DNA of 64,000 nt, taken from the NCBI RefSeq assembly GCF_007830265.1, contig NZ_VLKE01000001.1, positions 2,356,001 through 2,420,000 on the forward strand. The letters are read 5' to 3'. Origin of the DNA: Micromonospora olivasterospora. GTDB lineage: Bacteria > Actinomycetota > Actinomycetes > Mycobacteriales > Micromonosporaceae. Shown here in pieces: positions 15,517 to 45,440 of the stretch; within the stretch, counting starts at the first letter, position 1; each line of letters begins with the position of its first letter. Below the pieces are notes generated by a model that saw nothing but the letters and a program-made list of their open reading frames with translations, had not been told where the DNA came from and did no database searches. A program made the translations under genes and the position numbers.

Positions 15517-15526
15517 ATGCTCACCA

Positions 15527-15545
15527 TAAGGTAAGGCTCGCCTCA
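15527..15545 (-). promoter_or_regulatory. IdeR/DtxR-type iron box upstream of feoA
   Basis: TAAGGTAAGGCTCGCCTCA matches the actinobacterial DtxR/IdeR/DmdR consensus (TTAGGTTAGGCTAACCTAA) at 14 of 19 positions and is imperfectly palindromic. It lies 11-17 bp upstream of the feoA start, where a bound repressor would block initiation. Iron-loaded repressor binding is inferred from the consensus. Confidence 0.75.
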
Positions 15546-18062: not shown

Positions 18063-18067
18063 CACGA

Positions 18068-18093
18068 CTGAAGCCCCGCTCCGGCCGCTTCAG
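18068..18093 (+). terminator. Possible terminator after the two-component operon
   Basis: CTGAAGC (18068-18074) and its inverted copy GCTTCAG (18087-18093) with a GC-rich loop directly follow the kinase stop. There is no clear T tract, so termination is only likely. Confidence 0.4.
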
Positions 18094-18166
18094 GCTCCTC
18101 TCAGGTGGCGGGCGGCAGCCTGACACCAGGCGGGTCCGAAGGGCGGCCGGCTGTCACGGGGGAGCC

Positions 18167-18706: not shown

Positions 18707-18736
18707 GCACACCCCGCCCCCTCGGAGGTTCCCGCC

Positions 18737-19423: not shown

Positions 19424-19456
19424 ACAACCCGTCGGCGCCGAGGCGACACTGGCCGG

Positions 19457-25792: not shown

Positions 25793-26168
25793 CACCTGAC
25801 CACTGACACGATCAGACGTCGCGGAGCGCCGAACCGAAGCGCTAGACCACCGGTCTCTTCCTGCCGGTGGTCTTCGCTTGTGACGACCTCCAACTCGGAC
25901 TGCGAAGCTCGCCCCCATCGCTAGACGCCCGCAGGCGTCAGCCTGAGGACAGGATCGCGGTGGTTGGTCGCGCTGCGCATGGTGCGCAGGAGCGCCAGCA
26001 GGCCGTCGGCCAAGCGGCCTATGTCACGGCAGAGCTGAACAGGCAGAACGAATCGTGAGGTCGGCAGGAGTGGGTCGACCTCCGACTGACAAGAACCCGA
26101 CAGTAGGCGTTCGTAAGATCCTCTACTCTGAGCGTTCGCCTGCACTCGGACAGCGACGGGGGTAACCG
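25793..26168. other. Gene-free stretch with a hairpin, before the GHKL ATPase gene
   Basis: A perfect 10-bp inverted repeat, AGACCACCGG (25844-25853) and CCGGTGGTCT (25864-25873), may be a terminator, though the T tract is weak. The rest has no credible gene and holds the promoter of the gene at 26169. Base composition drops in GC towards that gene. Confidence 0.5.
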
Positions 26169-28121
26169 ATGGCAGAGATTCTTCTTTCAGTCGGTGAGCC
26201 CAAGATTAGGCAGTTCCAAAACAAGAAGCAGATCGCCGCGATAGCCGAACTTGTTTGGAATGCGCTGGATGCCAACGCGACGTATGTGGAAGTTGAACTC
26301 GAACGCACCTTGACTGGTGCGGTCGATCGAATTTTGGTTAGCGACAACGGCGAAGGCATCACCCCTGAGCAGGCTCAGGAATCCTTCCGTGAATACGGCG
26401 ACACCTGGAAGTCGAGTCGCACTCACACTAGCGGACATCAACGCATTCTCCACGGACAGAATGGCGAGGGGCGTCTGTACGCCTTTTCGCTGGGAGAGCA
26501 TCTCACGTGGACTTCGATAGCGAAGGTCGATGGCCGCAATGTGCAAACCCGTATCACCGTCAGCCGCAACCGGCCAACGGTCTGGAACATTGGTGATCCG
26601 GTCGAGACAACCGAAAGCACAGGGACCAAGGTCGCCATTACCGTGCCTCAGGGTAAGCGGCACCGGGCTCTAGAAAGCTCAGAAGCGCCGGACAATCTGG
26701 CTGCAAGGCTTGCGTTCTACCTGAGGGCGTACCCCGGGATCAAGGTCGTGTACGACGGAGTGATCCTCGATCCGGAAAACATCATTCAGGACATCGTTGA
26801 CCTCCGTCTAGACCTGCCTCCGGAGTATGTTTCCGAAGCGCCACCGATCGTGACATTTGTAGAGTGGAAGACTCGCATAACCGATCGGAAGATGCTCATC
26901 TGCAATGCGGAGGGGATTGCGCTCGCTGAGTACGGGGAAGACTGGCATGACGCTGTAGTTTCTTTCACTCCTTACCTGCGTTGGCGCGGCTTCAGCGACA
27001 TGACCGCTGACGGCATTCATATGTTAACTATGAGCCACGCACCTTTGCTGTACGCCGCTGAGCAGGCAGTTCGAAAGCATGTATCAAGGCGGCGGAGCGA
27101 GATTTCTAGTCAGGTCGTCGAGCAGTTGAAGACCGAGGGTCTGTACCCGTACGACTTGACGGAAACGAGTCCTACTCAGATGGTCGAGCGCCAAACGTTC
27201 GACCTCGTCGTTACGGTGGCACGTACCGCTCTGCCGCCACGTGGGGCGCCCCGCCAGCTCTCCGTTAACCTGATTCAGGCTGCACTCGAACGAGATCCCA
27301 GCGATCTTCATGGCATCCTTGATCGTGTTCTATCCCTAAGTCCTGAAGAGCGATCGCATCTAGGCCGTCTCATTGACGACACCCAACTGTCGAGCATCAT
27401 CAGCGCGACGAACACGATCATCGACCGGCTCAATTTCATCGGAGGGTTGCGCAAGCTGCTCGCAGATCCGCAACTTCGCCGTGAGTTGAGGGAGGTCGAC
27501 CAACTCCATCCGATGATCGCCAAGAACTTGTGGCTCTTCGGCGAAGAGTGGACACTTGCTCGCACGGAGGTTGGGTTGACCTCGGTGCTTCGAGAGTATC
27601 TCCACAACCTAGGTGAAGCGGTTACCCTCGAAAACGAACTTGAAAGAGTGGCGCGTGAAGATGGGCGCAGCGGTCGGGTCGATATTCTGCTATTTCGAGG
27701 CATAGGCGACGAGCGACACAACGAACGGCTTGTTGTGGAACTCAAGCGCCCAACGGTCAAGGTGGGTCGGACCGAGCTGGATCAGGTGAAGTCGTACGCT
27801 AGAGCGATTGTGGATGACCCGCAGTATCGCGGTGTAAAGTGTAAGTGGAAGTTCATTCTCGCAACTTATGACTACGACGAAGCGATTAACCGCGATATCC
27901 GCCAGCGCGACAAACCTCCGGGACTAGCTGACGACCAGGAGGAGTACGAGCTGTGGGTCTATAGCTGGGGTGAACTACTGGACGCCGCGGAGCGCAAGCT
28001 GTTCTTCTTCCGCAAACAGCTTGAATACGAGGCCACCGATGAGCGTGTGACGCGCTATCTCCGGGAGAGTTATCAGGAGTACATTCCTGAAACGCTCCAT
28101 GCGCCGTCCGCCCAGGAGTAG
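26169..28121 (+). CDS. GHKL (MutL/MORC/Hsp90-type) ATPase fused to a PD-(D/E)XK-like nuclease, candidate defence gene
   Basis: A 650-residue soluble protein. The N-terminal ATPase has the Bergerat-fold motifs: N box with N31 and D34 (AELVWNALDANA), G1 SDNGEGI (58-64), G2 HGQNGEGRLYAF (95-106) and a TGTKVAI segment (about 155). A middle region of about 300 residues is not recognised. Near the C-terminus, D505 (GRVDILLF) and E524-x-K526 (LVVELKRP) form the D...ExK core of a restriction-type nuclease, followed by a QVKSYA helix. The gene is less GC-rich and uses more A/T-ending codons than its neighbours, a sign of transfer, and is bracketed by an IS5 copy and an IS6 remnant. GHKL ATPases tied to nucleases occur in R-M-associated MutL/MORC systems; a stand-alone antiphage role is inference. 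Confidence 0.75.
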   Translation: MAEILLSVGEPKIRQFQNKKQIAAIAELVWNALDANATYVEVELERTLTGAVDRILVSDNGEGITPEQAQESFREYGDTWKSSRTHTSGHQRILHGQNGEGRLYAFSLGEHLTWTSIAKVDGRNVQTRITVSRNRPTVWNIGDPVETTESTGTKVAITVPQGKRHRALESSEAPDNLAARLAFYLRAYPGIKVVYDGVILDPENIIQDIVDLRLDLPPEYVSEAPPIVTFVEWKTRITDRKMLICNAEGIALAEYGEDWHDAVVSFTPYLRWRGFSDMTADGIHMLTMSHAPLLYAAEQAVRKHVSRRRSEISSQVVEQLKTEGLYPYDLTETSPTQMVERQTFDLVVTVARTALPPRGAPRQLSVNLIQAALERDPSDLHGILDRVLSLSPEERSHLGRLIDDTQLSSIISATNTIIDRLNFIGGLRKLLADPQLRRELREVDQLHPMIAKNLWLFGEEWTLARTEVGLTSVLREYLHNLGEAVTLENELERVAREDGRSGRVDILLFRGIGDERHNERLVVELKRPTVKVGRTELDQVKSYARAIVDDPQYRGVKCKWKFILATYDYDEAINRDIRQRDKPPGLADDQEEYELWVYSWGELLDAAERKLFFFRKQLEYEATDERVTRYLRESYQEYIPETLHAPSAQE

Positions 28122-28935: not shown

Positions 28936-30045
28936 CTACGCCTCGACTATGACTCGCGGAGCAGCTTCCGAGCCTGCGGACAGGACTACCTGGAGCAGGT
29001 CGGCTGACATGCCGGCCTGCCGCGCTACGGAGGTCAGAGTGTGCTGCTGTTCAGCGAGAACAGCAGCTGCCTTGCCTAAGAGTGAGGGCTGTTCGCGGGG
29101 GCCCAGTTCTGCGGGCTCCGGGTAGCCCCACTCGGCGAGCTTGTTCATGGCGCGCCGGTATGTGTAGTCGCTGTAGACGCCCATGGCGTGGCCTCGGTAC
29201 ACGAGCGCCTTGAGCGAGAGGCCCCAACGGCGTTTGGTCTTCCGGAGCTGCTCGAAGTCGAGTCGGGCGGGAAGCTCGTCTCGGAGCTGGCTGTCTGGCG
29301 CGAGGATCTGGGAGCCGAAGGCTGTCGCTTCCCGTTCGAGGATCTGGGAGCCGGGTTCGGCGTCGTGGTGCAGCAGCAGGTGAGCCAGCTCGTGGGCCGC
29401 GTCCATGCGGGAGCGAGCCTTGTCGTTCTTGCTCGGGTTGAGGAATACGAACGGTCGCGTTCCGTACCAGTGGGAGAAGGCGTCAACCTGTTCCGAGACG
29501 TCCGGCAGCGTGAGCACGACGACTCCGGTCGCCTCAAGCAGGCGGACCATGTGAGGCACAGGTTCGTCGCCCAGACCGAGGGCGTGGCGGGTGGCCACTG
29601 CTGCCGTTTCGAGGTCGCGGCTGCAGGCGTCCTCCGGGAGATCAATCGATGGCAGACGAAGTACCGGTAGCTCTAGGTGCTGTTCGATGGCGTCAACGAC
29701 GCGCCACGCGATTTGACCGAATGCAAGGGCTTGATCCCGCTCAGCCTGCGTAGTGGTGCGCAGGCTGCGGAAGTGCGGGTGTCCTGCTGTGGCCGGGGCG
29801 GGTATGCCGGTGGCGAAGAACCGGACCGGGACGGCGAGGGCGAGGGCGAGGCGGGCCAGCGTCGCGGGTGCCGGGCGGGACTGCGCCAGCTCGTACTGGC
29901 TCACTGCAGCAGCAGTGACACCCACTTGGCGGGCCAACTCCTTCTTGCGGATCCGTCGCCACTGCCGCGCGAGCGTCAGCGCGTGCGGCTGAAATGCCGC
30001 TGCTGCCAGCGCCGGCGCTTCTGCCCGCTCGCGGGCGGCCGTCAC
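28936..30045 (-). CDS. XRE-family regulator with ImmA/IrrE metallopeptidase domain
   Basis: A 369-residue protein. GTG 30045 is chosen because GTGA overlaps the upstream stop. Residues about 25-80 are a Cro/C1-type HTH (KKELARQVGVTAAAVSQYEL). Residues about 140-260 are an ImmA/IrrE-type zinc peptidase with HExxH in AAHELAHLLLHH and a downstream acidic residue (EREATAF, the third zinc ligand). Such fusions cleave or replace a repressor in phages, ICEs and stress regulons. The long C-terminal part is helical. It forms an operon with the 236-residue gene and faces the five-gene methylase operon, so it is a likely controller of that island. Confidence 0.88.
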   Translation of the reverse strand: MTAARERAEAPALAAAAFQPHALTLARQWRRIRKKELARQVGVTAAAVSQYELAQSRPAPATLARLALALAVPVRFFATGIPAPATAGHPHFRSLRTTTQAERDQALAFGQIAWRVVDAIEQHLELPVLRLPSIDLPEDACSRDLETAAVATRHALGLGDEPVPHMVRLLEATGVVVLTLPDVSEQVDAFSHWYGTRPFVFLNPSKNDKARSRMDAAHELAHLLLHHDAEPGSQILEREATAFGSQILAPDSQLRDELPARLDFEQLRKTKRRWGLSLKALVYRGHAMGVYSDYTYRRAMNKLAEWGYPEPAELGPREQPSLLGKAAAVLAEQQHTLTSVARQAGMSADLLQVVLSAGSEAAPRVIVEA

Positions 30046-31028: not shown

Positions 31029-32186
31029 ATGGCGCGGCCAACTGGTCGCTACGCTGCGGTTTCCATGTTCTCCGGCTGTGGCGGCATGGACCTCGGCGCC
31101 GAGCAAACCAAGCGCGTAGGCGTCGTCTGGGCCAATGACATCGAGCCATGGGCCGTGGAGACGTACAGGCGAAACCTGGGACGGCACATCGTTGCCGAGG
31201 ATATTGCCGAGCTCGACGTGCCGGAGGTGCCCTGCGACATCCTGCTCGCCGGGCCGCCGTGCCAGGACTACTCCACGCTGTGGAACCACGATGGGCTGAA
31301 GACCGCGCGGGGCAACCTGTTCCGCCACGTCGCGCGTTTCCTGGACGGGCTGCGTCCTGCGGCGTTCGTGCTCGAGAACGTGCCTGGCTTGCTCTCCGCC
31401 AACCACGGGGCGGCGTGGACTCTCGTCAGGCACGCCCTGCGTTCGCCGTCGAGCTTCGTGAGTGGCCCAAGGAACGGGCCAGGGGTGCGGTACGACCTGT
31501 CTGCGCAGGTTATCGACATGGCGGACCTGGGCGTTCCGCAGCACCGAGAGCGCCTCATTGTCGTGGGGGTGCGCCGGGACCTCAAGGTCCGCCCGCCGAT
31601 CATTCCGGACACGTATGCCGGGCGACACGTGACAGTCGCCGATGCGCTCGACAGAAGTCCGCTTCCCGACGACGCGCCGAACCACGAGCGCGGGCTCGAC
31701 GGCCCCGAGGTAATCAAGAGGCTCGAGCTCATTCCACCAGGGGCGAACTACGGCGTCATCCCGGAAGGGCACCCGTCTGCGGTCAAGGGGCTGATCAGCC
31801 ACGTTTACCGGCGGCTGGACCCGGACAAGCCGGCGTACACCATGATCGCGGGCGGCGGCGGGGGAACACACGGCTACCACCACGTCGAGCCGCGGCGGCT
31901 GAGCAACCGCGAGAAAGCGCGGCTGCAGGGTTTCCCCGACGACTTCGTCTTCGAACACGGGACTGTGCGCAACCGGGCGTCGGCGTACGCTCGCGTCCGC
32001 CGGCAGATCGGCAACGCGGTCCCGCCTCCGGCGGCCAGGGAGATCGTCGACGCGCTGACGCAAGTCCTGCTGTCGGCAGGCGTGCCGACGCGCAAGGCAG
32101 CCGAGCTGTCCGCAGCGCGCCGGCTGGCAAGCCGTACCACCCCCCATCGCGAGCGCCAAGCCGAGAGGAAGGCAGCCGGCCAGTGA
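31029..32186 (+). CDS. DNA (cytosine-5) methyltransferase
   Basis: A 385-residue Dcm-type enzyme that transfers a methyl group from S-adenosylmethionine to C5 of cytosine. Motif I is AVSMFSGCGGMDLG (residues 10-23), motif IV AGPPCQDYS with catalytic C78, motif VI LENV (115-118), motif VIII QHRERLIVVG, and motifs IX-X LSNREKARLQGFPDDF and QIGNAVPP. A complete, plausibly active enzyme. ATG 31029 fits the usual distance to motif I. The recognition sequence cannot be read from the protein. Its stop overlaps the next start (GTGA), so it is translationally coupled to the ATPase genes, which implies that methylation marks self DNA for the following restriction proteins. Confidence 0.95.
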   Translation: MARPTGRYAAVSMFSGCGGMDLGAEQTKRVGVVWANDIEPWAVETYRRNLGRHIVAEDIAELDVPEVPCDILLAGPPCQDYSTLWNHDGLKTARGNLFRHVARFLDGLRPAAFVLENVPGLLSANHGAAWTLVRHALRSPSSFVSGPRNGPGVRYDLSAQVIDMADLGVPQHRERLIVVGVRRDLKVRPPIIPDTYAGRHVTVADALDRSPLPDDAPNHERGLDGPEVIKRLELIPPGANYGVIPEGHPSAVKGLISHVYRRLDPDKPAYTMIAGGGGGTHGYHHVEPRRLSNREKARLQGFPDDFVFEHGTVRNRASAYARVRRQIGNAVPPPAAREIVDALTQVLLSAGVPTRKAAELSAARRLASRTTPHRERQAERKAAGQ

Positions 32187-34057
32187 CAGACCCCCGAGAC
32201 CTGCCGGACGAACTGCCCGTTGTCGCCGCCCTGAGGTCGCTGTCGGTTTTCAGCGCCGACCAGGCGGGTGCCTATCGTGAGCACTTCCAGCGCCTCGCCG
32301 AGGCGCTCGGTGCTGACGTGCCCACCCGCCTGGCGCAGCACGTTGCCGCGTGGGCCGAATCCGGGCAAGCTGGGGCCGTCGTGTTGACCGGCAACGCCGG
32401 CACGGGCAAAACTGCAGTGGCAGAGACGTACTGCCACGCTGTGGGTGGCGACCTTCCCGCAGGTGACGACCTGCATCAGGTCGCCGAGGGCCGCTGGGTG
32501 GTCAAGGACCTCTCAGGACTGCCGGACGACGCAGCGCGGCGCTCGACGCTCCAGGCGGTCCTCAACGGCCTGGAGACAGGATCGGACCAGTACCTGGTGT
32601 GCGCAAACGAGGGCGTCCTGCGCGACGCGCTCGACATCCTCGACCACGACGGCCTCGCCTCGGCCCTGGAGCAGGCGCTGCGCAGCGGGGCTGCCGAGGT
32701 CGGCAAGCTAGTGGTGGTCAACGTCAACCGCCAACGCCCGACAGCGCCCGGGCTGTGGGACGCCCTGCTGGACTTCCTCGTGCGCGAAGAGCTGTGGTCC
32801 GGCTGCGACGGCTGCCCGTTCGACCTCGGCATCTGCCCCATGCGCAGCAACGCCGACGCGCTGCGGAATCCGCGCGTGCGCGAGCAGCTGCGGACCCTGG
32901 TCCGCCTCGGCGCTGGCGAAGCCGTGCCGACGATCCGGGAGGTCTTGTCGGTGCTCGCCTGGGCGGTCGTCGGTGACCGGACTTGCAAGCACGTCAAGAC
33001 AGCGGCGCGGGACATGGAAAGGGCCGCCTTCACCGCCACCGACGGTTACTTCACCCGAGTGGTGGGCGGAGGGCTCACTCTCGAAGCGATCGAGCGCTCA
33101 CCGCTGATGTCGGGGATGCGCACCGCGCAGCTGGGGCACGTCAGCGACTTGGAAATCGACGGCTGGCTGCGGGACACCACCGGGTCACCCGACGAGGTTC
33201 GGCTGCTCGCCGGCGACCCTTCGCTGCTCGATGACGGGCCCGACGGCAGCCTCGCCCTGGCTGGGAGCCGCTCGCCGCTGGACAGGGTGCGGACGAAGCA
33301 AGGGACCATGACGTTCCACCACCTCGGTGAGCTCGTCAGTACCAGCGAAGACCCGACGAAGGTCGACGACGGGTTGGACGCGCTCGTGTCCGGAGACAGG
33401 GACAGCAACGCGCCCGCCCAGGTGCTGTGGCGCCAGCGCCTGTACTTCGAGGCGAGCCAGGCGTTGGGCAGCGCAGACGTCGCGTCGAGGCGGCTGCTGG
33501 GGTATCGCTACGTGGCAGACCTCGTCCGCTTGGCGCAGAAGGCCGCCCGCATCGAGGATGTCGTCCTCGAAATTTCAGAGCTGGTCCGTGGCCTCAACTT
33601 CCTCGTCACCGGGTTCTCCAGCCCGAACGAGGGGCTCGTCGTGCCGGACCCCGCGTGCCTGTTTGCCCGCGACCCCGGCTCCTTCCGGCCGGCGCGACCG
33701 TCGCTGGTGTACGGGCTCGTGCCGCTGGAGCGGCTGTCGGTGCGAGTCCCTGACCGCGGGCTCGTGGAGCGGCTGCTCGACGTCGACCACGTCGACGTCG
33801 AGCTTGCCATGAACGGTCGCGACGACCTGTCCTTGCGGATTCGGCCAAAAATGTACGAGGCCATCCGCGAGGCTGCCGACTTTCAGGGACCCGTCGGGCA
33901 GGGCGTCGCCGAGATGAACGACCTGCGCGGCTTCTACAGCCGCCTCGCCTCGGCGGAGGTCGCGGGCGATGCCATTCGAGTCGCCGACCCCGACTCCGAC
34001 CCGCCGGCCCTGGTCAAGGTCAACTTGCCGTACTTCGCGACTTCCCGGAGGGCGTAG
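32183..34057 (+). CDS. DptF-like P-loop ATPase
   Basis: A 624-residue protein starting at GTG 32183 in a GTGA overlap. Walker A is GNAGTGKT (residues 70-77). A cysteine group at about 208-220 (CDGCPFDLGICP) followed by MRSNADAL, VREQLRTLVR and TIREVLSVLAW resembles the arrangement I recall in DptF, the ATPase of the phosphorothioate-dependent restriction complex DptFGH. The similarity is from memory, not from a search. The C-terminal 300 residues are unrecognised. It sits second in the methylase operon, before the DptG-position and DptH-like genes, which supports the assignment by order. Confidence 0.7.
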   Translation: MTDPRDLPDELPVVAALRSLSVFSADQAGAYREHFQRLAEALGADVPTRLAQHVAAWAESGQAGAVVLTGNAGTGKTAVAETYCHAVGGDLPAGDDLHQVAEGRWVVKDLSGLPDDAARRSTLQAVLNGLETGSDQYLVCANEGVLRDALDILDHDGLASALEQALRSGAAEVGKLVVVNVNRQRPTAPGLWDALLDFLVREELWSGCDGCPFDLGICPMRSNADALRNPRVREQLRTLVRLGAGEAVPTIREVLSVLAWAVVGDRTCKHVKTAARDMERAAFTATDGYFTRVVGGGLTLEAIERSPLMSGMRTAQLGHVSDLEIDGWLRDTTGSPDEVRLLAGDPSLLDDGPDGSLALAGSRSPLDRVRTKQGTMTFHHLGELVSTSEDPTKVDDGLDALVSGDRDSNAPAQVLWRQRLYFEASQALGSADVASRRLLGYRYVADLVRLAQKAARIEDVVLEISELVRGLNFLVTGFSSPNEGLVVPDPACLFARDPGSFRPARPSLVYGLVPLERLSVRVPDRGLVERLLDVDHVDVELAMNGRDDLSLRIRPKMYEAIREAADFQGPVGQGVAEMNDLRGFYSRLASAEVAGDAIRVADPDSDPPALVKVNLPYFATSRRA

Positions 34058-35604
34058 TGCTCCTCGACAACCGGAACCTCACCCCCGGGCGGGTCGCACA
34101 AGTCTTGTTCGGCTTGGACCCCGACCGGGACGAGCGGGCTCCGCAGCTGTGTGCGGAGACCCTGCTCACCCTCGCCCAGAACCGATACCGCGCCCCGGCC
34201 CGCACCGACGATCTTCGCAGCCCCAAGCGGCAGCGATTCGCGCTCCGCAGCTTGGCGCTCGCCACCAACTTCCTGGCGGGCAGGGAGGGCCGCGCGGGCG
34301 AGGACAACATGACGCCGCACCTGTACGGCAAGATCCTCGCCTCGGGTTCCGACGTCCGCAACAGCGCGAACCTTGCGCTGGCCCAGAGCGCCCTGCAGGG
34401 TCTCGTCGACCCCGACACGCAGCGGGGCCAGCCGGGGGCATGGCTGCTGCGGCCCTTCCACGAGTCGCTGCTCTGGTACGACGCGCGCAAGGCGCCGAGC
34501 CGCCCAGACTGGACGGTGCGCAAGGTATACATGCGCGGCAGCGGGATCACTCTCGCTCGGCTGCTCCTCGCCCCGACGGACCCGAAGGCGGCCGAGCAGG
34601 GCGCGTCTGCGGTCTCCGCCATACAAGCGGCTCTGACGGGGCCGAGCCCGCTGGCAGACATCAGCCGTCGTCTGGAGTCGGCACTGCAGACCGACGTGCC
34701 GTTCACCACCAAGACGCCGGACACCGAAGACGACGAGAAAGCCGCCTGGGAGCGGGGCGAGGACGAGCTGCTGCAGCCCCTCGCGTCCAGCCTGTGCCGC
34801 CACGCCGAGGGGGTGATGTGCCAGGGCGGCGCCAGCGGGCCGGCCAAGCTGTGGCAGCTGCGCACGATCCTCGCGCTGGACCTGGCGGTGCACGCCCTGC
34901 GGGTGGCCTGGGACACCACCTCGACACCCGAGGAAGACCGTTTCCTCCTGCTGAGCTTCGGCGGGGGACCGCGTGCGCAGGACCGGATCCGGCAGCGGTC
35001 GGAGGAGTCGTACCGTCGGGCCCGGATCCGGCTCAACGAGGCAACCATCTCCACAGTCGCCCGCATCATGCGCCAGCTGGTCGAGAGGAAGACGGTCGTG
35101 TGGGCCGACGAGTTCGAAAATCGGCGCAACAAGCTTGACGGGGAGAAGGGCCCGGACGGGCTGCTGCACCAGCTCACCAAGCTGACTGCCCGCAGCTCCG
35201 ACGACGACTACCTGCGGCTGGCGCGCACGTCGGTGGAAAGCGCGAACTACGGACGGGCGGAAGACGGGTTCCGGGTCCTTCTGGAGTCGGTAGGGCTAGT
35301 CGCCGGCACCCGCTACCGCTACCTGACGGCTACCCCCGACCTGCTGGCTGCCCTCGTGGGCGCGCTGTCGAGCCGGATGCCCATGCCCAGCAACGAGTTC
35401 TTCGCAGCAGTGCGACAGGAGTGGGGACTGGTGATCAACCAAGAGTCAGCGGCGTCGACGAGCCTGCGCGGCCAGGTCGACGGCGCTGGCCTCGAACGCA
35501 ACGCCCGCCGCGCTGAGAGACTGATGACCGAGGCAGGACTGGCTCTCAGCCTGTCCGATCGCACCACCGTGGTGGGCGAACGCGCGCAGAGGCGGCCCAA
35601 GTGA
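34057..35604 (+). CDS. Unknown protein in the DptG position
   Basis: A 515-residue mostly helical soluble protein. It starts at GTG 34057 in a TAGTG overlap and ends in GTGA with the next gene. No motif is recognised. It contains several long helices (TISTVARIMRQLVERKTVVW) and a winged-helix-like end (PMPSNEFFAAVRQEWGLVIN). By order it occupies the place of DptG between the F- and H-like ATPases; sequence similarity to DptG is not claimed. Its overlaps on both sides make membership in the complex likely. Confidence 0.65.
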   Translation: MLLDNRNLTPGRVAQVLFGLDPDRDERAPQLCAETLLTLAQNRYRAPARTDDLRSPKRQRFALRSLALATNFLAGREGRAGEDNMTPHLYGKILASGSDVRNSANLALAQSALQGLVDPDTQRGQPGAWLLRPFHESLLWYDARKAPSRPDWTVRKVYMRGSGITLARLLLAPTDPKAAEQGASAVSAIQAALTGPSPLADISRRLESALQTDVPFTTKTPDTEDDEKAAWERGEDELLQPLASSLCRHAEGVMCQGGASGPAKLWQLRTILALDLAVHALRVAWDTTSTPEEDRFLLLSFGGGPRAQDRIRQRSEESYRRARIRLNEATISTVARIMRQLVERKTVVWADEFENRRNKLDGEKGPDGLLHQLTKLTARSSDDDYLRLARTSVESANYGRAEDGFRVLLESVGLVAGTRYRYLTATPDLLAALVGALSSRMPMPSNEFFAAVRQEWGLVINQESAASTSLRGQVDGAGLERNARRAERLMTEAGLALSLSDRTTVVGERAQRRPK

Positions 35605-38600
35605 GTCAGAGGCTCGGCGGCGCCTTGGCCGCCCACATCAGAGGCATGAGGGGCACCTCGAAGTTCGTCCTCGTCGAGGGCGTCCCGACCAGCCTCGCTC
35701 TAGGTATGGCTACGGCTTGGACCGAGGAGCTCCCGCCGCTGGCCGTGGTTTCCGACTCGCCCCGCCGCTTCGGCATCCACGCGCTGACGGGCTCCGGAAC
35801 GGGGCTGCGCAACCGTTACCCGCAGGGAATCGTGCTAGTCCTTTGCGAAGGGCTGCAGGTCCCGGACCGCAGCGGCCTTAACCTCTTCGAGAACGTGTCG
35901 CCCGGCGTGCTCCTGGAATCCCCCGAAGGTCTGGTCACGATAGCCCGCCAAGAACCGGCAGCAAGCCTCGACGGCCCGGTGCGAGCGGTGCGAGAAGCCA
36001 TCACCCGCGTGGGCAGCGCCCACAAGCCGAGTGCCGCCCAAGTGGCGGCATACTTCGACCGGGTCGCCGCTGGCGAGGACCCGCTGAAGTGCCTGCCCTA
36101 CCTGGGTGCCTTCGCTGACACCGCCACTGGCGACAGGGTCGACGCCGACCGGATCGGCGACAACCTCGCCCTGGCCGCCCGCCGCACCAGCGACGACGTC
36201 CTGCGGCCGACTGCCTACACCGAGATTCGGCGGCGCGCCGAGACGGTCCTGGGCCGGCGGCCCAGGCTGCGAAACGAGCCCTCGGAGGCTTCGGCCGCTG
36301 CAGCGGCGGTGATGACGATGCTGCAGTCTGGGAGCGAGCAACTGCTGCAGGAACTGGAGTTCGACGAGGCCCGCGAGATCCTCGAACAGCGCACTAAGGA
36401 CCTCGCGGACGTCGCACTGCAGGCGCTGGTCGACTACCAGCGGCGGCACGAGGACGAGCGGATTTCGCTGCTGCCTTGGCCTAGGTACCACTCGCGCACT
36501 GAGGAACTGCGCCGCTCAGCCCAGCAACGAGACGCCGCGCGGGACCTGCTCGACCTCGACGAAGCCCAGGCACACGGCATCTTCGACAGGCAGACCAGGA
36601 TCAAGCTCGAAAAGCTGCTGCGCGACAGGGCCATCAGCGGCAGCAACCCGTCTTGCCCCGAGAGCGCCCTGATCAGGGCGCTGCAGCAGCTCGGTGGGCC
36701 GTTAAAGCGCATCAGCCTCCTCAGCCCGAAGCCACCAGCAGAGAACGCGAAGGCGAACCGCAGCGGCGCGGTGCGGATCATCACCCTCGGCTGTGCACGG
36801 CTTCGGCTGGGCGGATTGATGCGCCGGCTCGAGAGCCGGGGGGTAGAGGTCGACGGCCTCCTCCTCCAGCCGGCTGACACCGACAAGACTATCGAGGCAT
36901 CGTTCCACGACGCTGACCTCGCGTCGGGAGAGCTCGCCCTGTTGCAGCTGCGGCTCTATGCCTCTGACGGCACTACCGTCCAGGTCGACTGGCGGCCCGA
37001 CCTCGACGACGCCGCGCTGCTGCGGGCCGCGCTGCTGTTCGCCGAGGAGACCGCCCTCACCTTGGCGACTTCAGAGGAACCGACCCTTTCGTCGTTCTGC
37101 AGCGACGAGGCACCGAGCGCGCAACCGGTATCGAGCGAGCTCAAGCCGCTCGCGCACGAGCTACGCGAGCTGGCACGGCTCTCGCTTCAGGAAGGGCTCA
37201 ACCCCCAGCCCCTGCGAAGGTGGGCTGCCAGCTGGGCCACCGCCAGCAACGAACGGGCGCCCGGCGTTGAGGCCGAGTCGGCGGAGGCACTCTCGCTGGC
37301 GGGCGCGGTCGCAGGCCGGGCCCACTGTGTGGCCCTCACCGGCTTCGCGCCCCTGAAGGCCGAGTGGCTCGCCCAGTACCTCGACGCGCTGTGGTCTCTG
37401 CTTGACGCCGCCGCTGGAACGGCTGAGGACAAGCCTGTGGCCGCGACAGCCGCCGGCATCGCCCGCGCGACGGCCACGCACCACCCCGCACACGTCCGTG
37501 CCTGCCTGCGGGACAAAGCCATGCTGCCCACCAGCGAGGGCCGGCTGTGGAGCCTCTACGGCGGAACCAACACCCGCGACGAAAGCGGTTACGCCGGCGC
37601 AGCGCTCACCTCGGTCGTCGTCCGGCTGCTCACGCTGCAGCCCGAGGCCGCCGGTCATCTGCGCTGCCTCGCCTACGGCCCAGGTGCAGCGGACCTCCTC
37701 GTCTCGCAGGCGGTCAAGCTCATCGGCCGCAGGACCGGCCGCGGCACGGTCGCAAAGATCGAGGTGTTCTGCATCGGAGAAGAGCCCAGCGACCGGCCAC
37801 ACTGGCGGACGCTCGCGCGCGCTGACGAGGAACTGCGCGACAGCCGCGACGTGCTGGAGCTGCGCTACCTCGACAGCCTCGCCCGTGCCCGGGATGTCCT
37901 GCAGCAGCCCGGGTCCCCGAACCCGGCGGTGCACCTCGCGCTGGTAACCGGCATCAGCGACGGCGGCAACCGGCTCCAGATCGAGTTTCCCGAGGTACCA
38001 GCTCCGCGAGAGGACTCTGAGGTCCTCTTTGCTCCCAGAACCTCCCAGCGGCCAGGCAAGGAACGGCGCATGCTCCTGATGCCGCCCGCGACGACGCAGG
38101 CCGGCATAACCTGGCTGAAGCTGCAGGCAGCCGTGGACGAATCCTGGCCGGAAGAAGGCGAGAAGATCCCGGTCCCGGAGGTCCGCACCGGAGCCATGGA
38201 CATCGCCGAGCAGCTGCGGAAGGTTCACGACCTCGCGCTCTGGGTGGCCACCCTCGACCGCTATGCCACCCGCGACAGTCTCGAGCAGGCCCTCGGTGCC
38301 GACCGCATCGCCATCCTGCACCAGGAGCGCCGCCTCGGTGGCGACAGCCCGCTGTCCCTGGTGCTGAGCCAGAAGTCGGGCGGCCCCGCCGACCGCGCCA
38401 TCGGCCGCAGCCTCCGGGCGGCCAACATCGTCGCCGACCGAGACGTTGCCTTCAGCGTCGGAACAGACCTCCGCAAGGTCGCCAGCCAAGGCTACGGAAT
38501 CCTGGCTCTCGAGGCCGCCACCAGCGGCACAGGCATCAACGAACTCGTCGGCCACGTCGTGGCCTTCTCGCTGCTCGCCCGCACCACCACGCCCTGGCCC

Positions 38601-40484
38601 CTGCCGCCCGGGTGCCGCGTCCTGCTCGTCAGCCTCGACGAGTACCGGCACTGGTTCCCCGGCCGCCGCGCGGACCTGCTCGCGATCGCACTCGACCCCT
38701 GCGAGGAAGGGGTCCACGTCGCGGCCATCGAGGTGAAGGCGAGGCGCAGCGACGAAGCCGACGCCGCTGCCGGCGCGCTCGACCAGCTCAACCAGACGCT
38801 CGCCGCCACGAGGTGGGCCGCCTACCCGGAGCCCGGCTCGATCCACAGCCGCCTGTGGCTCAACCGCATTGCGGAGGCCGCCTACTCGGTCGCCCGCGAG
38901 TCGCGCTTCAAGCTCGACGCGGGTGAACTGGCGGCGCTCGAAGCGTTCCGCACCGGCACCGGCACTCTCGAATGGGCGGGCGTGGGCCTGGTATTCGGTC
39001 CAAACGTGGAAGTGTCCGACAAGTACTACCCGAGGGAGGTGGCCAGCGACATCGTCCCAGTAGTGCTGCACAACATCAAACTCACCGAGGAACTGCTGCT
39101 CGAAGCCGCCCGGGTGCGTATCACGGACTTGAGGACCGTCGAGGCCGAGCGCCCGCCTCTCAAAGGCGGACGCACGCGACGCAGGCCCGAGGCCAAGCCC
39201 GCAGAGCAGGCGCAGCCAGCAACCGCCGCTAGCCCGGACGACGAACCGCCCCAGCCTGCCCGATCTGCGCCAGGCGAGACAGCGGCTGCCGTCGCGAGCG
39301 GCCAACCTACTGGCCCAGAGCAAACCAGCACTGCCGAGCCGGCCCTAGCCGAGGAACCCCACAAGCAGTCGCAGCCTGCAGCAGCTGCCGCAGAACCAGC
39401 TGCGTTCCGTGCCCCGATCCTGGGCTGGGACGCCACCACCGGCGAGGAAGTGCGCTGGCATCCGGCCGGCCCGGAGCAGGGTGTCCTGCAGAACGGCCAC
39501 ATGGAAGTCTGGGGCAGCTCGGGAATGGGCAAGACGCAGTTCACGATGAGCCTGCTCGCACAGCTCGCCCACCACAGCGGAAGCAAGTTCGGCATCGCCG
39601 ACTTCAAGAACGACTATAGCGACGAGACCGGCTTCCCCCATCTGGCCGGCGCGACGTTCCTCGACCTCTGGAACGACGGCGCCCCGTACAACCCCCTCGC
39701 GCTCGACGACTTCACCGACCGCTCGGTCGACACCGCCGTCATCGAGCTGCGAGACACCGTCGAAGTCGCCACCAAATCGTTCACCCGGATCGGCGTCAGG
39801 CAGCGCGGCAAGCTGGAGAAGGCGTTGCGAAGCGCCTATGCGACCGGCCGAAAGGAGGGCCGCTGGCCGACACTCCGGCTGCTAGACGACGAGCTCGACG
39901 ACGACCTGAAGGGGGTCATCGGCGACCTCACCCGCAACGAACTGTTCCGCGAGGGCCCCCCGCTCGGCGAGGTCATCGACCAGAACGTCGTCTTCGGGCT
40001 GAGCCGCATCCCAGGCAACGGTCAGACGACTGTCCTGGCCGCCGGGTTCATCCTCTCGGCCCTGCTCCTGCGAGTGCAGTCGCTGCCGCCCGTGCCAAAC
40101 TCCGTCCGCTATATCGCGGTGGTGGACGAAGCCCACCGGGTCGCCGCCTTCAAGGCCGTCGATACCATGATCCGGGAAGGCCGTTCGAAGGGGCTAGGCG
40201 TCGTGCTCGCCACTCAGCAGCCCGGAGACCTGCCCGATGTGGTCGCCACCAACGCCCAGACCAAGGTGTGCTTCCGCCTGCCAGACGCCACCGTCGCAGC
40301 CTCAGCAGCCCGCAAGCTCAACCCGAACGACACGCGGCTAGCCGAACAGATCCGCACACTGGGCAAAGGCGAGGCCCTGGTCAGCTTCGGCGGAACCAAG
40401 CCGCGCCTGCTGCGCATGGCACAGGCATACCGCGACCGCCGCGATCTTGAACTCCCCGACGAGGACGCCACAACCACGCGATGA
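35601..40484 (+). CDS. DptH-like giant protein: nuclease-like region plus C-terminal HerA/FtsK-type ATPase
   Basis: 1627 residues, GTG 35601 in a GTGA overlap. The N-terminal about 1000 residues are unrecognised. At about 1020-1045, RADLLAIALDP and HVAAIEVKARR give a D...ExK pair, typical of PD-(D/E)XK nucleases. A Pro/Ala/Glu-rich linker (about 1185-1270) leads to a HerA/FtsK-type ATPase: GSSGMGKTQ Walker A (about 1305), FGIADFKNDYSD, APYNPLALDD, Walker B YIAVVDEAHR (about 1504) and VVLATQQPGDLPD. The DFKxDYSD and PYNPL blocks are what I recall in DptH, the largest subunit of the phosphorothioate-dependent restriction complex. It likely moves along DNA and cuts DNA lacking the self mark. The stop overlaps vsr. 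Confidence 0.75.
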   Translation: MSQRLGGALAAHIRGMRGTSKFVLVEGVPTSLALGMATAWTEELPPLAVVSDSPRRFGIHALTGSGTGLRNRYPQGIVLVLCEGLQVPDRSGLNLFENVSPGVLLESPEGLVTIARQEPAASLDGPVRAVREAITRVGSAHKPSAAQVAAYFDRVAAGEDPLKCLPYLGAFADTATGDRVDADRIGDNLALAARRTSDDVLRPTAYTEIRRRAETVLGRRPRLRNEPSEASAAAAAVMTMLQSGSEQLLQELEFDEAREILEQRTKDLADVALQALVDYQRRHEDERISLLPWPRYHSRTEELRRSAQQRDAARDLLDLDEAQAHGIFDRQTRIKLEKLLRDRAISGSNPSCPESALIRALQQLGGPLKRISLLSPKPPAENAKANRSGAVRIITLGCARLRLGGLMRRLESRGVEVDGLLLQPADTDKTIEASFHDADLASGELALLQLRLYASDGTTVQVDWRPDLDDAALLRAALLFAEETALTLATSEEPTLSSFCSDEAPSAQPVSSELKPLAHELRELARLSLQEGLNPQPLRRWAASWATASNERAPGVEAESAEALSLAGAVAGRAHCVALTGFAPLKAEWLAQYLDALWSLLDAAAGTAEDKPVAATAAGIARATATHHPAHVRACLRDKAMLPTSEGRLWSLYGGTNTRDESGYAGAALTSVVVRLLTLQPEAAGHLRCLAYGPGAADLLVSQAVKLIGRRTGRGTVAKIEVFCIGEEPSDRPHWRTLARADEELRDSRDVLELRYLDSLARARDVLQQPGSPNPAVHLALVTGISDGGNRLQIEFPEVPAPREDSEVLFAPRTSQRPGKERRMLLMPPATTQAGITWLKLQAAVDESWPEEGEKIPVPEVRTGAMDIAEQLRKVHDLALWVATLDRYATRDSLEQALGADRIAILHQERRLGGDSPLSLVLSQKSGGPADRAIGRSLRAANIVADRDVAFSVGTDLRKVASQGYGILALEAATSGTGINELVGHVVAFSLLARTTTPWPLPPGCRVLLVSLDEYRHWFPGRRADLLAIALDPCEEGVHVAAIEVKARRSDEADAAAGALDQLNQTLAATRWAAYPEPGSIHSRLWLNRIAEAAYSVARESRFKLDAGELAALEAFRTGTGTLEWAGVGLVFGPNVEVSDKYYPREVASDIVPVVLHNIKLTEELLLEAARVRITDLRTVEAERPPLKGGRTRRRPEAKPAEQAQPATAASPDDEPPQPARSAPGETAAAVASGQPTGPEQTSTAEPALAEEPHKQSQPAAAAAEPAAFRAPILGWDATTGEEVRWHPAGPEQGVLQNGHMEVWGSSGMGKTQFTMSLLAQLAHHSGSKFGIADFKNDYSDETGFPHLAGATFLDLWNDGAPYNPLALDDFTDRSVDTAVIELRDTVEVATKSFTRIGVRQRGKLEKALRSAYATGRKEGRWPTLRLLDDELDDDLKGVIGDLTRNELFREGPPLGEVIDQNVVFGLSRIPGNGQTTVLAAGFILSALLLRVQSLPPVPNSVRYIAVVDEAHRVAAFKAVDTMIREGRSKGLGVVLATQQPGDLPDVVATNAQTKVCFRLPDATVAASAARKLNPNDTRLAEQIRTLGKGEALVSFGGTKPRLLRMAQAYRDRRDLELPDEDATTTR

Positions 40485-41017
40485 AACCGCGCCAAGGGCG
40501 TCCTGTCACCGCACGTCGAACACCGCGCAGCGACACGTCCGCGTACTCCTGGGCAAGCACCCCAGAAGTACGCGGACGGATGCAACGGCAGCAGACCCGC
40601 GACACTCAACCCGAACTCGCAATACGACGACTGCTACACGCGACCGGACTGCGGTACCGGGTCGATGCCGCCCCTGTGCCGGCGCTCCGTCGCCGAGCTG
40701 ACATCGTCTTTGGCCCAGCCCGTGTCGCCGTCTTCGTCGACGGGTGCTTCTGGCACGGGTGCCCGCACCACGGCAGCAGAAACACAAAGGCCAACACCGC
40801 CTACTGGTCCGACAAGATAGCGCGCAACCGGGCACGCGACGCTTCCACCGACGAGCTACTGACGAACGATGGTTGGCTCGCCATCCGCGTATGGGAACAT
40901 GAAGACCCGCAAGAGGCAGCAGAAGAGCAATGCTCGAAACCTGTGGATGAGCGCCGTGGGGGCGTACTCTTCCGGCGAGTTCCACGTCCAAGGAATCGAG
41001 TAGAGCCCGCGCGCTAA
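40481..41017 (+). CDS. vsr: Very-short-patch-repair (Vsr) endonuclease
   Basis: A 178-residue protein with ATGA overlap to the large gene. The Vsr core is complete: ELAIRRLLHATGLRYRVDA, RRADIVFGPARVAVFVDGCF with the catalytic Asp, WHGCPHH with zinc and active-site His/Cys, and YWSDKIARNRARD, WLAIRVWEHED. Vsr nicks at T:G mismatches made by deamination of 5-methylcytosine, which fits a methyltransferase in the same operon. The last about 25 residues do not look like Vsr and probably come from IS256 DNA fused at about 40928. The catalytic part is unaffected. Confidence 0.92.
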   Translation: MKPRQGRPVTARRTPRSDTSAYSWASTPEVRGRMQRQQTRDTQPELAIRRLLHATGLRYRVDAAPVPALRRRADIVFGPARVAVFVDGCFWHGCPHHGSRNTKANTAYWSDKIARNRARDASTDELLTNDGWLAIRVWEHEDPQEAAEEQCSKPVDERRGGVLFRRVPRPRNRVEPAR

Positions 41018-41806: not shown

Positions 41807-44374
41807 TCAGTCAACGAGGTAGTGGGCTTCGATGTAGGCGACGGTGGAGTCATACGGCTCTCCCACCGGCTTCAACATGTACCGGCGGAAGACCGCGGCG
41901 GTGGCGCGGCGGACACCTCGGTTGCGGGCTTCTGCGTTGTCCCATGATTGGGCGAGGGTTCGGGTGACGACCTGATCGATCTCCTCGGCCAGGTTCCGCT
42001 CGGTGACGGTGAGGCCGGGCGGTGCGTGGTCGTGGATGATCCGCGACAGGACGCCCACGTGGTCGTCGTCGAGCACGACGATGGCTTCGTCGGGGTGCTT
42101 TTCGGCGTTCACGATGGCGCGGGCGATCCGGAGTGCTTCGGACAGGAAGTCCAGGGCGTCCTGGGCGTTCTGAATGATCCGGTCCCGCAGCAGCCTGATC
42201 CGTTCTGCGAGGGCGGTGTACTTCGCGGACCCTGGGTCGACGCCCTTCTCGAGGGCGGCCTTGATGCGGTCCAGGATCTCCGCCGCGGACGGCGGCGCCT
42301 TGTCCTCGCCGTCGTCCTTGTCGGGATTGGGGCGGACGAGGGTCATCAGCTCTTTGAGGATTGCGATGCCCTGGGCGTCCAGGACGAGGGGCTCTTCCTG
42401 GGAGGTGACGACGGTGAAGGAGTGGACGTGGGCGTTGATGATCTCAAGGACCATCGGTCCCAGCTCGGCCAGCCGTTCCTTCCTCTCCTCGTCGGAGGAC
42501 TTCTTGAACAGGGTGGTGTACACGGACCCGAACAGCCCGAACCCGTCCCGGTACTTGGCGATCCGCTTGTCGGTGTTGATGAGCGGGTACAGGCGGGCCA
42601 GGAGCCGGTAGTCCTTGGCGAACACCTCGGCGGCGCCGGGGTTGGCGTCCAGGAAGACGTTGATGGCCCGCACGGACTCGTATCCGTGGACCGTGAGGTC
42701 CAGGTCGTCCACGTCCGCGAGGAGGTCTTCGATGCGGGCGAAGGTGGTGCGGAACTCGGCGACCAGCTCGGACGGGTCGGTGACGAACCCGCCGCCCTTC
42801 TTGCCTGCCCCCTCCGAGGTGGGGTCGACGACGGCCCGCTGGACCTCTTCGGCCAGGCCGATGTAGTCCACGACCACGCCGGAGGTCTTCACGAATCCGG
42901 TCGGGGACACCCAGGTGCGGTTCGGGCGGGTGATCGTCTGGAACAGGGTGTGGGCCTTCAGTGGCTTGTCCAGGTAGAGAACGCCCTCGTTGGGGGCGTC
43001 GAACCCCACCATCAGTTTCGCGGTTACCACCAGGAAGCACAGCGGGTCGTCCGGGGTGAGGAACCGCCGCTTCTGCTCCTCCTCCTCGTTCTCCGAGAGC
43101 TGGAACGGCCGCATGGCGGGGTCTTCGTCCTTCGAGTTCGAGACGGAGATGTTCACCTCGGCGGTGATCCGGTCGTGCTTCCCGACCTCGGCGAGTACCT
43201 GTGACGCTTCGAAGCCGGCCAGCAGCTCGTTAATCTTGTCCGTGTATGCCACGGCCAGCTCGCGGTTGTAGGCGACGACCTGGGCTTTGAGGCCGTTGCG
43301 GTAGGCGCCGGCCAGGTAGTGGTCCACGATGTCTTGGCAGACCGTGTGGATGCGGTCGGGGTTGGCGAACACCGAGGTGAGGCGTCCGAACTTGCGGGAC
43401 AGGGTTTCACGATCGGGGTCGTCGAGGTCGAAGTCGTCGGCGAACTGGTCGAACTCGGCCTGCAACTCCTGGTCGTTCATTTCGAAGGAGACCGGGTGCG
43501 GGTCCAGCATGACTGGGACGGTTGCCTCGTCCCGCAGAGACCGGGACACCGAGTATCGGTGCAGCACCCTGCCCGGGTCGGTCTCCTCGCCGAAGAGGGC
43601 AAAGGTGTCGGTGGCGAGGTTCCTGATGGGGGTGCCGGTCATGCCGAAGAACTTCGCGTGCGGCAGTGCTGTGCGCATTTGCCCGGCCAGGGACTTTGAC
43701 TTGTCGGACTGGGTGCGGTGTGCCTCGTCGACCAGCACGATGATGTTGTCCCGGGTCGACAGGTTCTTGCCGGCGTCGGCGAACTTGTGGACGGTCGTGG
43801 AGATGACGCCGCGTACGTCGTTGGCCAGCAGGGAACGCAACTCCTGGCTGGTGGCGGGTTGATGGAAGTAGGCGTCTCCCATGGCGGAGGTGAACACGCC
43901 GGAGGTCTGGCGGACGAGCTGGGTTCGGTCCGAGAGCAGGATGATCGTGGGTGACTCGGTGCGGGTGTCGGCCAGCAGCAGTGAGGCGGCGAACACCATC
44001 AGCAGGGTCTTCCCGCTGCCTTGGTGGTGCCAGATCAGGCCCCTCTGGCCGCCGGTTAGGACGCGTTCGTGAATGAGGTGGGCGGCTTCCCTTTGGGGGT
44101 AGCGGGGCAGGTACTTCTTGTCCACCCCGCCTCCAGAGGTGTCGAAGAGGGCGAAGTTGGCGAGCATGTCCAGGACGGTTGCCGGGTTGAGCAGCAGCTG
44201 CACGGATCGCTGCACGTCGGCCTGGCCGGACAGGTTCTCGTCGTCGCCGGTGGACCGGAACGGCTGCCACAGGTTCAGGGGCGCGCCAACGGCGCCGAAT
44301 CGCAGCTTTAGCCCGTCGGAGGCGACCGCGAAGACGTTGGGGGTGAAGAACCACGGGTACTCGTTGGCGTACAC
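41807..44374 (-). pseudogene. hsdR: Type I restriction subunit HsdR, N-terminally truncated
   Basis: About 855 residues remain of roughly 1000. The helicase core is intact: Walker A HHQGSGKT, DEAH box VLVDEAHRTQSDKSK, GMTGTPI, and motif VI-type TRPNRTW. The C-terminal domain (ALDFLSEALRIARAIVNAEK, then the YDSTVAYIEAHYLVD end) is complete. The N-terminal PD-(D/E)XK nuclease region is missing: the sequence starts in YANEYPWFFTPNVFAVASDG, which normally follows it. GTG 44374 is arbitrary, because the frame runs back into the hsdM fusion point. Without the nuclease domain and without hsdS it cannot restrict. Confidence 0.85.
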
Positions 44375-44384
44375 GTCGTTGATC

Positions 44385-45440
44385 TCAGAGGACGCCGTTA
44401 GGCAGGACGACGCCAGCGCGCCCCTTCTTCGGGTCCATGCTGGCGATCATGTGCTGCACGAACGCCCAGTCCGCCGACGACTGCGGAGCGACACCGCCGA
44501 TGGCGCGAGGGTCCTTGGTCCAGGGCTTCCACTTCAGGCTGTAGGGCGGGTTGGCGACGATCACGTCGAATTGCGCGAGCGACCCGTCCGGCTTTTTGAA
44601 GCGCGGGTCCTTCAGGGTGTCGCCGACCTCGACCTGGAACTGGGTGAGGTTGTGCATGAAGAGGTTCATGCGTGCCACACCCGCGGTGTCCGCTACGGCC
44701 TCCTGCCCGTACAGGCGGAGCGTGTAGCCACGCCCGCCGTGGGCCTTCAGGAGGTTCGCGGAGGCGATGAGCATGCCGCCCGACCCGCAGGTCGGGTCGT
44801 ACACCGACTCGAAGCTCTTGGGGGCTAGAACTTCGACGATTAGCTCGACGACCTCGCGCGGGGTGAAGAACTGACCGGCGCGGGTGCCGGACCCGTCAGA
44901 GAACCGCTTCAGCAGGTACTCGTACGCCCCACCGAGCACGTCGTGGGACATGTTGCCCTCGTGCATCTTTGGGGTGCGGTCCATCGCCTGCATGACCGCC
45001 GCCAACACTTCCCCCGACAGCACCTCTTCAGAGGTCCAGGTCATGGACCCGAACAGGCGGGAGAACTTGTCAGGGTTGGCTGTCTCGATGGCTTGCAGGG
45101 AGGCACGGACCCGCTGGCCGAGGCCGGGCTGGGTGATGGTAGCGAGAATGGACGACCAGGAGGCACGACGCTGCTGGACGGTGCCGGGATGGATGAACGG
45201 GATCTCGAACGACTGGTAGTCGCGGTACTCGATCTCGTGGGCTTCCTCGGCGGAGAGGCCGCCCAGGCCCTCGTTGTCGGCCAGGAACTCCTGGTGGCGG
45301 TGCTCCCAGGTATCCGACAGGTACTTCCAGAACATCAGCGGGAAGACGACCGAGGAGTATTGCGCTTCAGGCATCGCCACGCGCAGCTCGTCGGCGGCGT
45401 CCCACAACCGGTTCTCGATCTCCTGCTGGGTCACTGCCAT
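44385..45440 (-). pseudogene. hsdM: Type I methyltransferase subunit HsdM, C-terminally truncated
   Basis: 351 residues remain of about 500. The N-terminal HsdM helical domain (LWDAADELRVAMPEAQYSSV), the AdoMet motif DPTCGSGGML and the catalytic IVANPPYSLKW are intact. After VVLPNGVL the frame hits TGA and runs into hsdR sequence. The C-terminal region and the whole of hsdS are absent, so specificity is lost. The first gene of a former hsdM-hsdS-hsdR operon. Confidence 0.85.

Follow-up and report, generated by a model that had tools for sequence, protein, structure and literature searches.

What marks self DNA when a restriction module related to SspFGH and DndFGH adjoins a cytosine methyltransferase and no recognized phosphorothioate (PT) genes? 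The question is raised by a five-gene operon of Micromonospora olivasterospora (assembly GCF_007830265.1), which lies in a 64,000-nucleotide stretch of contig NZ_VLKE01000001.1 (positions 2,356,001–2,420,000), hereafter the window, in whose numbering the coordinates of its features are given. The operon (31029–41017, all genes on the + strand) encodes a C5-cytosine DNA methyltransferase, three proteins termed here F, G, and H, and a Vsr-type endonuclease. An original prediction, made from the DNA letters alone, had proposed that 5-methylcytosine (5mC) replaces phosphorothioation as the self mark in this operon. We infer the same, and it is the best-supported reading, with no PT genes recognized at any of the 56 related loci described below. 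The operon is thus probably a restriction–modification (RM)-like defense system, whose C5-methyltransferase would mark self DNA and whose SspFGH/DndFGH-type complex would attack unmarked DNA.

A repeated order of five overlapping genes

The methyltransferase gene (31029–32186), which encodes the predicted self-marking enzyme, is followed by F (32183–34057, 624 residues), G (34057–35604, 515 residues), H (35601–40484, 1627 residues), and the Vsr-type endonuclease (40481–41017, 178 residues). The junctions read GTGA (4 bp), TAGTG (1 bp), GTGA (4 bp), and ATGA (4 bp) in turn, which bears out the originally noticed overlap of 1–4 bp at each of them. F, G, and H comprise 2766 residues together and are three adjoining genes in F-G-H order, as in the SspFGH/DndFGH restriction module. 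The likely start of the methyltransferase is ATG 31029; the open frame reaches back to 30795, but in that longer open reading frame (ORF) the family match starts only at residue 88.

F was matched in 18 of the 397 genomes of the window's order. A congener (G475) has the identical five-gene order, with 78–97% identity to the window proteins, and so has a genome of another family (G096), with 60–72% identity; the operon of the latter also starts with a methyltransferase, 72% identical to the window enzyme. Because the order repeats in these two genomes, the operon is not a chance assembly. Two further genomes (G554 and G671) carry F-G-H and Vsr in other orientations, with C5-methyltransferases only 27 to 28% identical to that of the window.

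A C5-methyltransferase accompanies FGH in five phyla

A genome collection was scanned with an F alignment (A1), which gave 56 loci, and profiles were run on their six-frame ORFs. The four F proteins that seeded the scan had been chosen from F matches whose loci carried C5-methyltransferases, and three of them are among the 56 loci (G096 as L043, G554 as L058, and G671 as L050); L060 duplicates L059. We found a C5-methyltransferase in 51/56 loci, 50 of them having it within 1.5 kb, and in 47/52 loci when the three seeds and the duplicate were left out; the make-up claimed for the window was thus found again in other genomes. At the observed density of PF00145 matches (134 rows in 271.6 Mb), chance would place one within 1.5 kb in 0.26 of 43 loci, and 41 of the 43 had one. 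G and H were each found in 55/56 loci; neither was seen at L082, where the contig ends just after F. At three loci without a methyltransferase (L049, L051, and L095), a contig end lies no more than about 0.5 kb from the start of F and cuts off the upstream region.

When 833 ORFs from 55 loci were clustered, no further family was present in six or more loci. The methyltransferase and Vsr are placed around F-G-H in 14 arrangements, three of which are without Vsr, and the methyltransferase–FGH pairing spans five phyla by tree labels. In clade A, to which the window belongs on the H tree (see below), the methyltransferase, F, G, and H run head to tail on one strand. The whole 7.07-Mb genome of M. 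olivasterospora has one PF00145 match, namely, the FGH-linked methyltransferase, and the linked gene is also the sole match in 6/7 checked clade-A genomes (L040–L043, L045, and L048; not L047). F had no match in phage records or viral contigs. The survey comprised this single seeded scan and a sample at the class level, described below.

F, G, and H are nearest to SspFGH

The middle three proteins had been predicted to be like DptF, DptG, and DptH in size and order. Both features hold, but the closest branch is SspF/G/H and not Dpt. The best PADLOC models were SspF (1.8e-28), SspG (1.6e-13), and SspH (1.2e-23), and neither F nor G matched a DndF or DndG model in PADLOC. The second match of H was DndH (4.6e-19), and H also matched MAD8 at 6.6e-19. 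The NCBIfam matches of the three proteins to E 0.1 included no Dpt- or Dnd-named model, the presence of such models in the library being unchecked. Canonical Dpt/Dnd membership by sequence was rejected on these grounds, that is, no match to a Dpt- or Dnd-named NCBIfam model and closer SspFGH models in PADLOC. The question whether the proteins match another named system has the same answer: the matched module, SspFGH/DndFGH, is that of the earlier claim itself, with SspFGH as the nearer branch.

A profile of four F sequences aligned with nine PT-linked SspF proteins in hhalign (99.9%, E 9.6e-36, 323 columns), and G also matched its PT-linked relatives by this method. Judged by these profiles, the window F is a homolog of SspF with a P-loop and a putative NTPase of the SspF/DndF type. 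The predicted model of G, a DndG/SspG-like protein, matches the DndG structure 7exx in a second look with VIA-align, and DndG was not among the 50 Foldseek matches listed for G; as modeled, G has the DndG fold.

H is an SspH/DndH-like nuclease-translocase by its profile matches, and three regions were distinguished in it, all on the + strand. A methyltransferase-like Rossmann domain (37560–38381, residues 654–927) lies where the inactive methylase domain of DndH is described. It is followed by a PD-(D/E)xK nuclease motif (38652–38744; W1018, R1023, D1025, E1044, and K1046) and by a HerA/FtsK-type ATPase domain (39408–40400; HerA_C 2.8e-8, Walker A K1311, sensor Q1539), which matches the DptH structure 7es4 (4.3e-10). 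The ExK pair and the HerA-type ATPase block that had been noticed in the 1627-residue protein were both confirmed as E1044-x-K1046, with D1025, and DFKNDYS at residues 1334–1340. The nuclease D, E, and K are invariant in 55/55 H proteins of the window and the F scan, 9/9 PT-linked H, and 4/4 H of the methylation-associated defense system (MADS). Over the same 68 H proteins of three kinds, K1311 and Q1539 of the ATPase are invariant (68/68), and W1018 and R1023 of the nuclease motif are not. The Foldseek matches listed for the middle region of H are mainly methyltransferase folds; as a nuclease fold was unseen among them, the nuclease assignment rests on the conserved motif. H is accordingly predicted to be a restriction nuclease whose catalytic residues are intact, joined to a methyltransferase-like domain and, at the C terminus, to a HerA/FtsK ATPase.

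PT genes are not recognized with the module

SspD and DndC profiles matched none of the 56 F-scan loci; the SspD search covered the loci, and the DndC search also covered the 50 genomes behind them. The same profiles do match 4/6 other gammaproteobacterial FGH loci. DndC (TIGR03183) was above cut-off in 1/50 genomes, with two more weak partial matches below cut-off, and these counts speak against a dndBCDE cluster beside the homologous loci in most relatives, an objection foreseen in the original prediction. The one genome above cut-off is that of Nocardia albiluteola (G797, which holds L068), where a full DndC (L096) lies outside the L068 locus; G797 has possibly switched back to PT, or its single C5-methylase possibly acts in trans.

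As originally noted, no dnd gene was recognized in the window. Its genome has two PAPS-reductase matches, whose neighbors are a sulfite-reductase-like ORF and a CysN-like ORF, respectively; from this context we take them to be CysH and CysD. PF01507 was matched in 32/34 genomes, mostly strongly, as in 14 control genomes; the matches in G791, G796, G801, G803, G808, and G810 are weak or partial. With no DndC/SspD-type gene recognized beside the module, profile searches indicate that the window operon is not a complete Dnd or Ssp PT system. PADLOC matches to SspF, SspG, and SspH do not imply phosphorothioation.

FGH occurs with other writers elsewhere

The SspF model was run over 321 gammaproteobacteria and gave seven FGH loci in six genomes. 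One of these is of the 5mC kind (G818, identical to L079); four have SspD, and SspB and SspC were present at both of the two that were checked for them. F relatives were matched in eight plasmid records, and all five of those examined show cysteine desulfurase, DUF4007, large unnamed protein(s), PAPS reductase, F, G, and H. Four loci from the window's order (G429, G565, G673, and G691) combine genes for an N6-methyltransferase and an HsdS-like subunit with a MAD6-like kinase–F fusion, G, and H, and are thus MADS-like; these calls used profiles built mostly from G673, which was itself compared with PADLOC. A C5-methyltransferase was found in 0/4 PT loci and 0/4 MADS loci. At L030 (G673, 4557–20000) and L031, the MAD6-like kinase carries a fused SspF-like domain and is followed by a MAD7-like protein with an SspG-like end and then by H; from these matches, the FGH module seems to be a part of MADS. 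The F-G-H core occurs with three kinds of writer, because PT, MADS-like, and C5-methyltransferase loci all carry it, and it appears that PT, adenine-type, and 5mC marks share FGH as a common module.

The methyltransferase and Vsr

The window methyltransferase is a complete C5-methylase (PF00145 2.4e-57, model positions 3–322 of 324), and the dcm model TIGR00675 is above cut-off. The original description as a complete Dcm-type enzyme holds for its completeness, but the nearest solved relative is M.HaeIII and not E. coli Dcm. Among 51 linked enzymes, the C5-methylase motifs were found by pattern as PCQ in 50, EN[VLI] in 51, QxRxR in 51, and GN[AS][VI] in 49; these enzymes are not one family but form ten sequence classes when the threshold is set at 45% identity. 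We rejected an assignment to DrmMII, the best DrmMII match (9.6e-32) being far weaker than the best MTase_II match (1.3e-88), and DISARM membership of the operon, as F, G, and H match no Drm model at E 0.1 in PADLOC. Profile scans of 31029–41017 recognized no N6-methyltransferase, specificity subunit, or kinase, and beside the methyltransferase no type II endonuclease except the H nuclease and Vsr.

The last gene had been called a Vsr nuclease, and it matches TIGR00632 over cut-off (1.4e-33) and the E. coli Vsr structure 1cw0 (1.1e-12); the active-site residues E45, D74, and H92 are invariant in 37/37 aligned Vsr proteins. The role of Vsr in E. coli is the repair of deaminated 5mC. Vsr was found in 36/56 F-scan loci, each time alongside a methyltransferase. 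It is therefore an accessory gene and not a constant component of such loci.

FGH stays nearly constant while the methyltransferase changes

In a tree built from the middle region of H, clade A (10 rows, including the window), clade B (45), the PT rows (9), and the MADS rows (4) each lie on one side of a branch, the PT branch having a support of only 59. Uniting clades A and B on the H tree was not rejected (p-AU 0.892), with a better likelihood when they were held together. A tree built from the ATPase domain of H alone splits the PT rows and is poorly resolved (17/65 inner branches starred). On the F tree, the 5mC label needs six changes, five of them forced, when loci without a methyltransferase are scored apart, and on the H tree ten changes are required to account for the ten methyltransferase classes.

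By Mantel correlation over 50 loci, the F, G, and H distances are almost collinear (0.994 for F and H, 0.991 for F and G), and the methyltransferase distances follow them (0.714 for F and the methyltransferase; 0/500 shuffles as high). Among pairs whose F proteins are more than 70% identical, the methyltransferases are less than 35% identical in 59/144; for example, the F, G, and H of L065 and L084 are 92, 91, and 91% identical and the methyltransferases 30%. A swap scan in 40-residue segments (L065 numbering) compared ten class-0 loci with L066, L076, and L084, and with L050 and L057. The largest dip was in the H linker (1241–1360), with milder ones at H 521–600, F 81–120, and G 161–200. We name no recognition domain in F, G, or H, because the flagged segments also vary within one methyltransferase class or dip mildly.

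Weighing the 5mC reading

In the mechanism that we favor, the methyltransferase would write 5mC at its site across the chromosome, and G together with F would inspect DNA. On unmarked DNA, the H ATPase would translocate and its PD-(D/E)xK nuclease would cut or nick. Vsr would nick T:G mismatches that arise from deaminated 5mC, so that marked sites are kept. We infer all three of the functions involved, that is, protection by 5mC, cutting of unmethylated DNA by FGH, and the repair role of Vsr. In two studies on the PT systems, SspFGH without its PT genes damages cell DNA and is restrained by those genes (PMC8092258), and DndFGH is reported to be toxic without modification in some cases (PMC12707154). 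Protection of self by 5mC is the most likely logic for the present operon, because the C5-methyltransferase is the only linked writer here.

Several observations weigh against this interpretation. Two Nocardia loci (L067 and L068) have an intact F-G-H and no methyltransferase within 10 kb, the genome of each having one PF00145 match elsewhere. Two of the seven gammaproteobacterial FGH loci (G894 and G1025b) show no recognized modification gene, although not every neighbor was scanned and the upstream side of G1025b is cut by a contig end. Since the seeds came from C5-methyltransferase loci, the 56 loci sample one branch and not all FGH. In addition, FGH proteins about 90% identical stand beside methyltransferases about 30% identical, and no segment of F, G, or H changes clearly along with them, which would be odd if FGH read the site of its own methyltransferase. 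Finally, the study of SspFGH itself reports that it has no sequence homology to DndFGH (PMC8092258), and a common origin of the two accordingly rests on the matches found in this study and on later papers.

The four loci without a recognized linked modification gene would also fit a standalone anti-invader FGH, to which the methyltransferase and Vsr are independent neighbors in a defense island, and Rakesh et al. 2024 argue that DndFGH needs no inbuilt modification module to work (PMC10853773). We regard this alternative as unlikely: a pairing at 41/43 loci against 0.26 by chance persists in five phyla, through the 14 arrangements and about ten methyltransferase changes, no other family recurs, and clade A keeps the four genes head to tail on one strand. 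Less plausible still is a small RM or maintenance unit made up of the methyltransferase and Vsr, with the Vsr-type nuclease as its restriction enzyme and FGH as a helper or backup. PADLOC does list Vsr under "Type II nicking endonuclease", and its active-site residues are intact, but Vsr was not found in 15 of the 51 methyltransferase-bearing loci, whereas G and H are each present in 55/56. The least credible of the alternatives is a reverse, type IV-like or suicidal logic, in which 5mC or altered methylation triggers FGH and the methyltransferase labels invaders or serves as a safeguard against its own loss. In its favor, methyltransferase identity is not clearly tracked by FGH, and Rakesh et al. 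suggest that DndF senses phage-derived modified nucleotides (PMC10853773). Against it, the chromosome of a cell with its own methyltransferase would come under attack, and SspFGH, and sometimes DndFGH, is reported to be toxic without its mark and not with it (PMC8092258, PMC12707154).

For the 5mC-marked operon that we prefer, the near-constancy of FGH suggests either that a site is common to the enzymes or that the 5mC check is not tied to the site of any one enzyme. We further propose, as a tentative idea that we hold to be somewhat doubtful, that FGH is a mark-exchangeable restriction engine, which became coupled in evolution to PT, adenine-type, and 5mC writers and whose 5mC branch has no co-varying recognition domain for the methyltransferase's own site. 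FGH may then respond to a general lack of 5mC, or to one site that quite different enzymes have in common. If this is true, the methyltransferase could be replaced about ten times while FGH changed little, and many "orphan" FGH modules would be coupled to overlooked base methylation. What FGH senses is directly testable, because very similar FGH complexes adjoin very different methyltransferases. A 5mC-coupled branch (50 distinct loci of one scan, in five phyla) beside the PT and adenine-type branches would explain simply why DndFGH is commonly decoupled from PT marks (PMC10853773): a single restriction module would serve several self marks.

Genes around the operon

An RmrA-like protein with a helix-turn-helix domain and an M78 peptidase (28936–30042, − strand; PADLOC RmrA 1.2e-185) is encoded divergently from the operon, with about 1 kb without a clear gene between them, and an RmrA-like gene (80%) also flanks the operon of the congener G475. 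RmrA was rejected as a part of the system, as among the 56 loci it was found only at L078 (5 kb upstream of F) and at none of the clade-A loci L040–L048. Farther upstream is a MutL/Hsp90-type ATPase (26169–28121, + strand) with a weak HSDR_N-like C terminus, weakly like the BbrUII/HgiDII restriction family; the HATPase profile was found in none of the 56 loci, and this neighbor was likewise rejected. The 2-kb bin 26001–28000 has a GC content of 0.57, compared with about 0.67–0.68 on either side. Downstream (41807–45440, − strand) lies a remnant of a type I RM system, in which HsdM (351 residues) stops early and HsdR matches only from model position 159; there is no HsdS between the two, as the gap is 10 bases. 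ARAGORN called a tRNA-Cys inside gene G on the opposite strand (34629–34715, −), probably a false positive. At L067, a 1357-residue AAA helicase with an MTES_1575 nuclease domain (5349–9422 of that locus, − strand) adjoins F.

Comparison with known systems

The original prediction knew of no named system with this make-up, and in line with it the titles and shown abstracts from full-text literature searches gave no description of a C5-methyltransferase–FGH–Vsr system, supplements and most subscription papers being outside their reach. The nearest relative is SspABCD-SspFGH of Vibrio anguillarum FF-93 (PMC8092258), which has in common with the window the F-G-H order, the PADLOC matches, the hhalign matches of F and G, and the catalytic residues of H. 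Its self mark, however, is phosphorothioation by SspBCD/IscS, whereas the window has a C5-methyltransferase and Vsr and no recognized SspD or DndC. DndABCDE-DndFGH (Dpt) is similar in the structural match of the G model to DndG 7exx and in the matches of H to DptH 7es4 and to DndH profiles, but the window lacks its dnd modification genes, and its F and G have no DndF or DndG match in PADLOC.

MADS also places base methylation beside F-, G-, and H-like genes, and the window H matches MAD8. MADS loci, however, have an HsdM-like N6-methyltransferase, an HsdS-like subunit, and a kinase–F fusion, whereas the window has a single C5-methyltransferase, Vsr, and no kinase. Lacking recognizable HsdM/HsdS-type genes and the MAD6 kinase, the window operon is not MADS as far as its gene content indicates.

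The CxC-ATPase/DndE systems of Rakesh et al. 2024 (PMC10853773) resemble the operon in having a cytosine methylase instead of PT genes in a Dnd-related system, but they are centered on DndE plus an ABC ATPase and use other nucleases, whereas the window combines a methyltransferase, F, G, H, and Vsr. In that paper, cytosine methylases are described with the CxC/DndE systems, DndFGH is treated as standalone, "lacking an inbuilt modification module", and is commonly decoupled from the PT marks it supposedly reads; the word Vsr occurs 0 times in the text, supplement aside.

The operon further shares a C5-methyltransferase and a Vsr with an intact active site with the Dcm–Vsr pair and the M/Vsr pairs of type II RM systems. 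It differs from them in that FGH stands where the type II restriction enzyme would.

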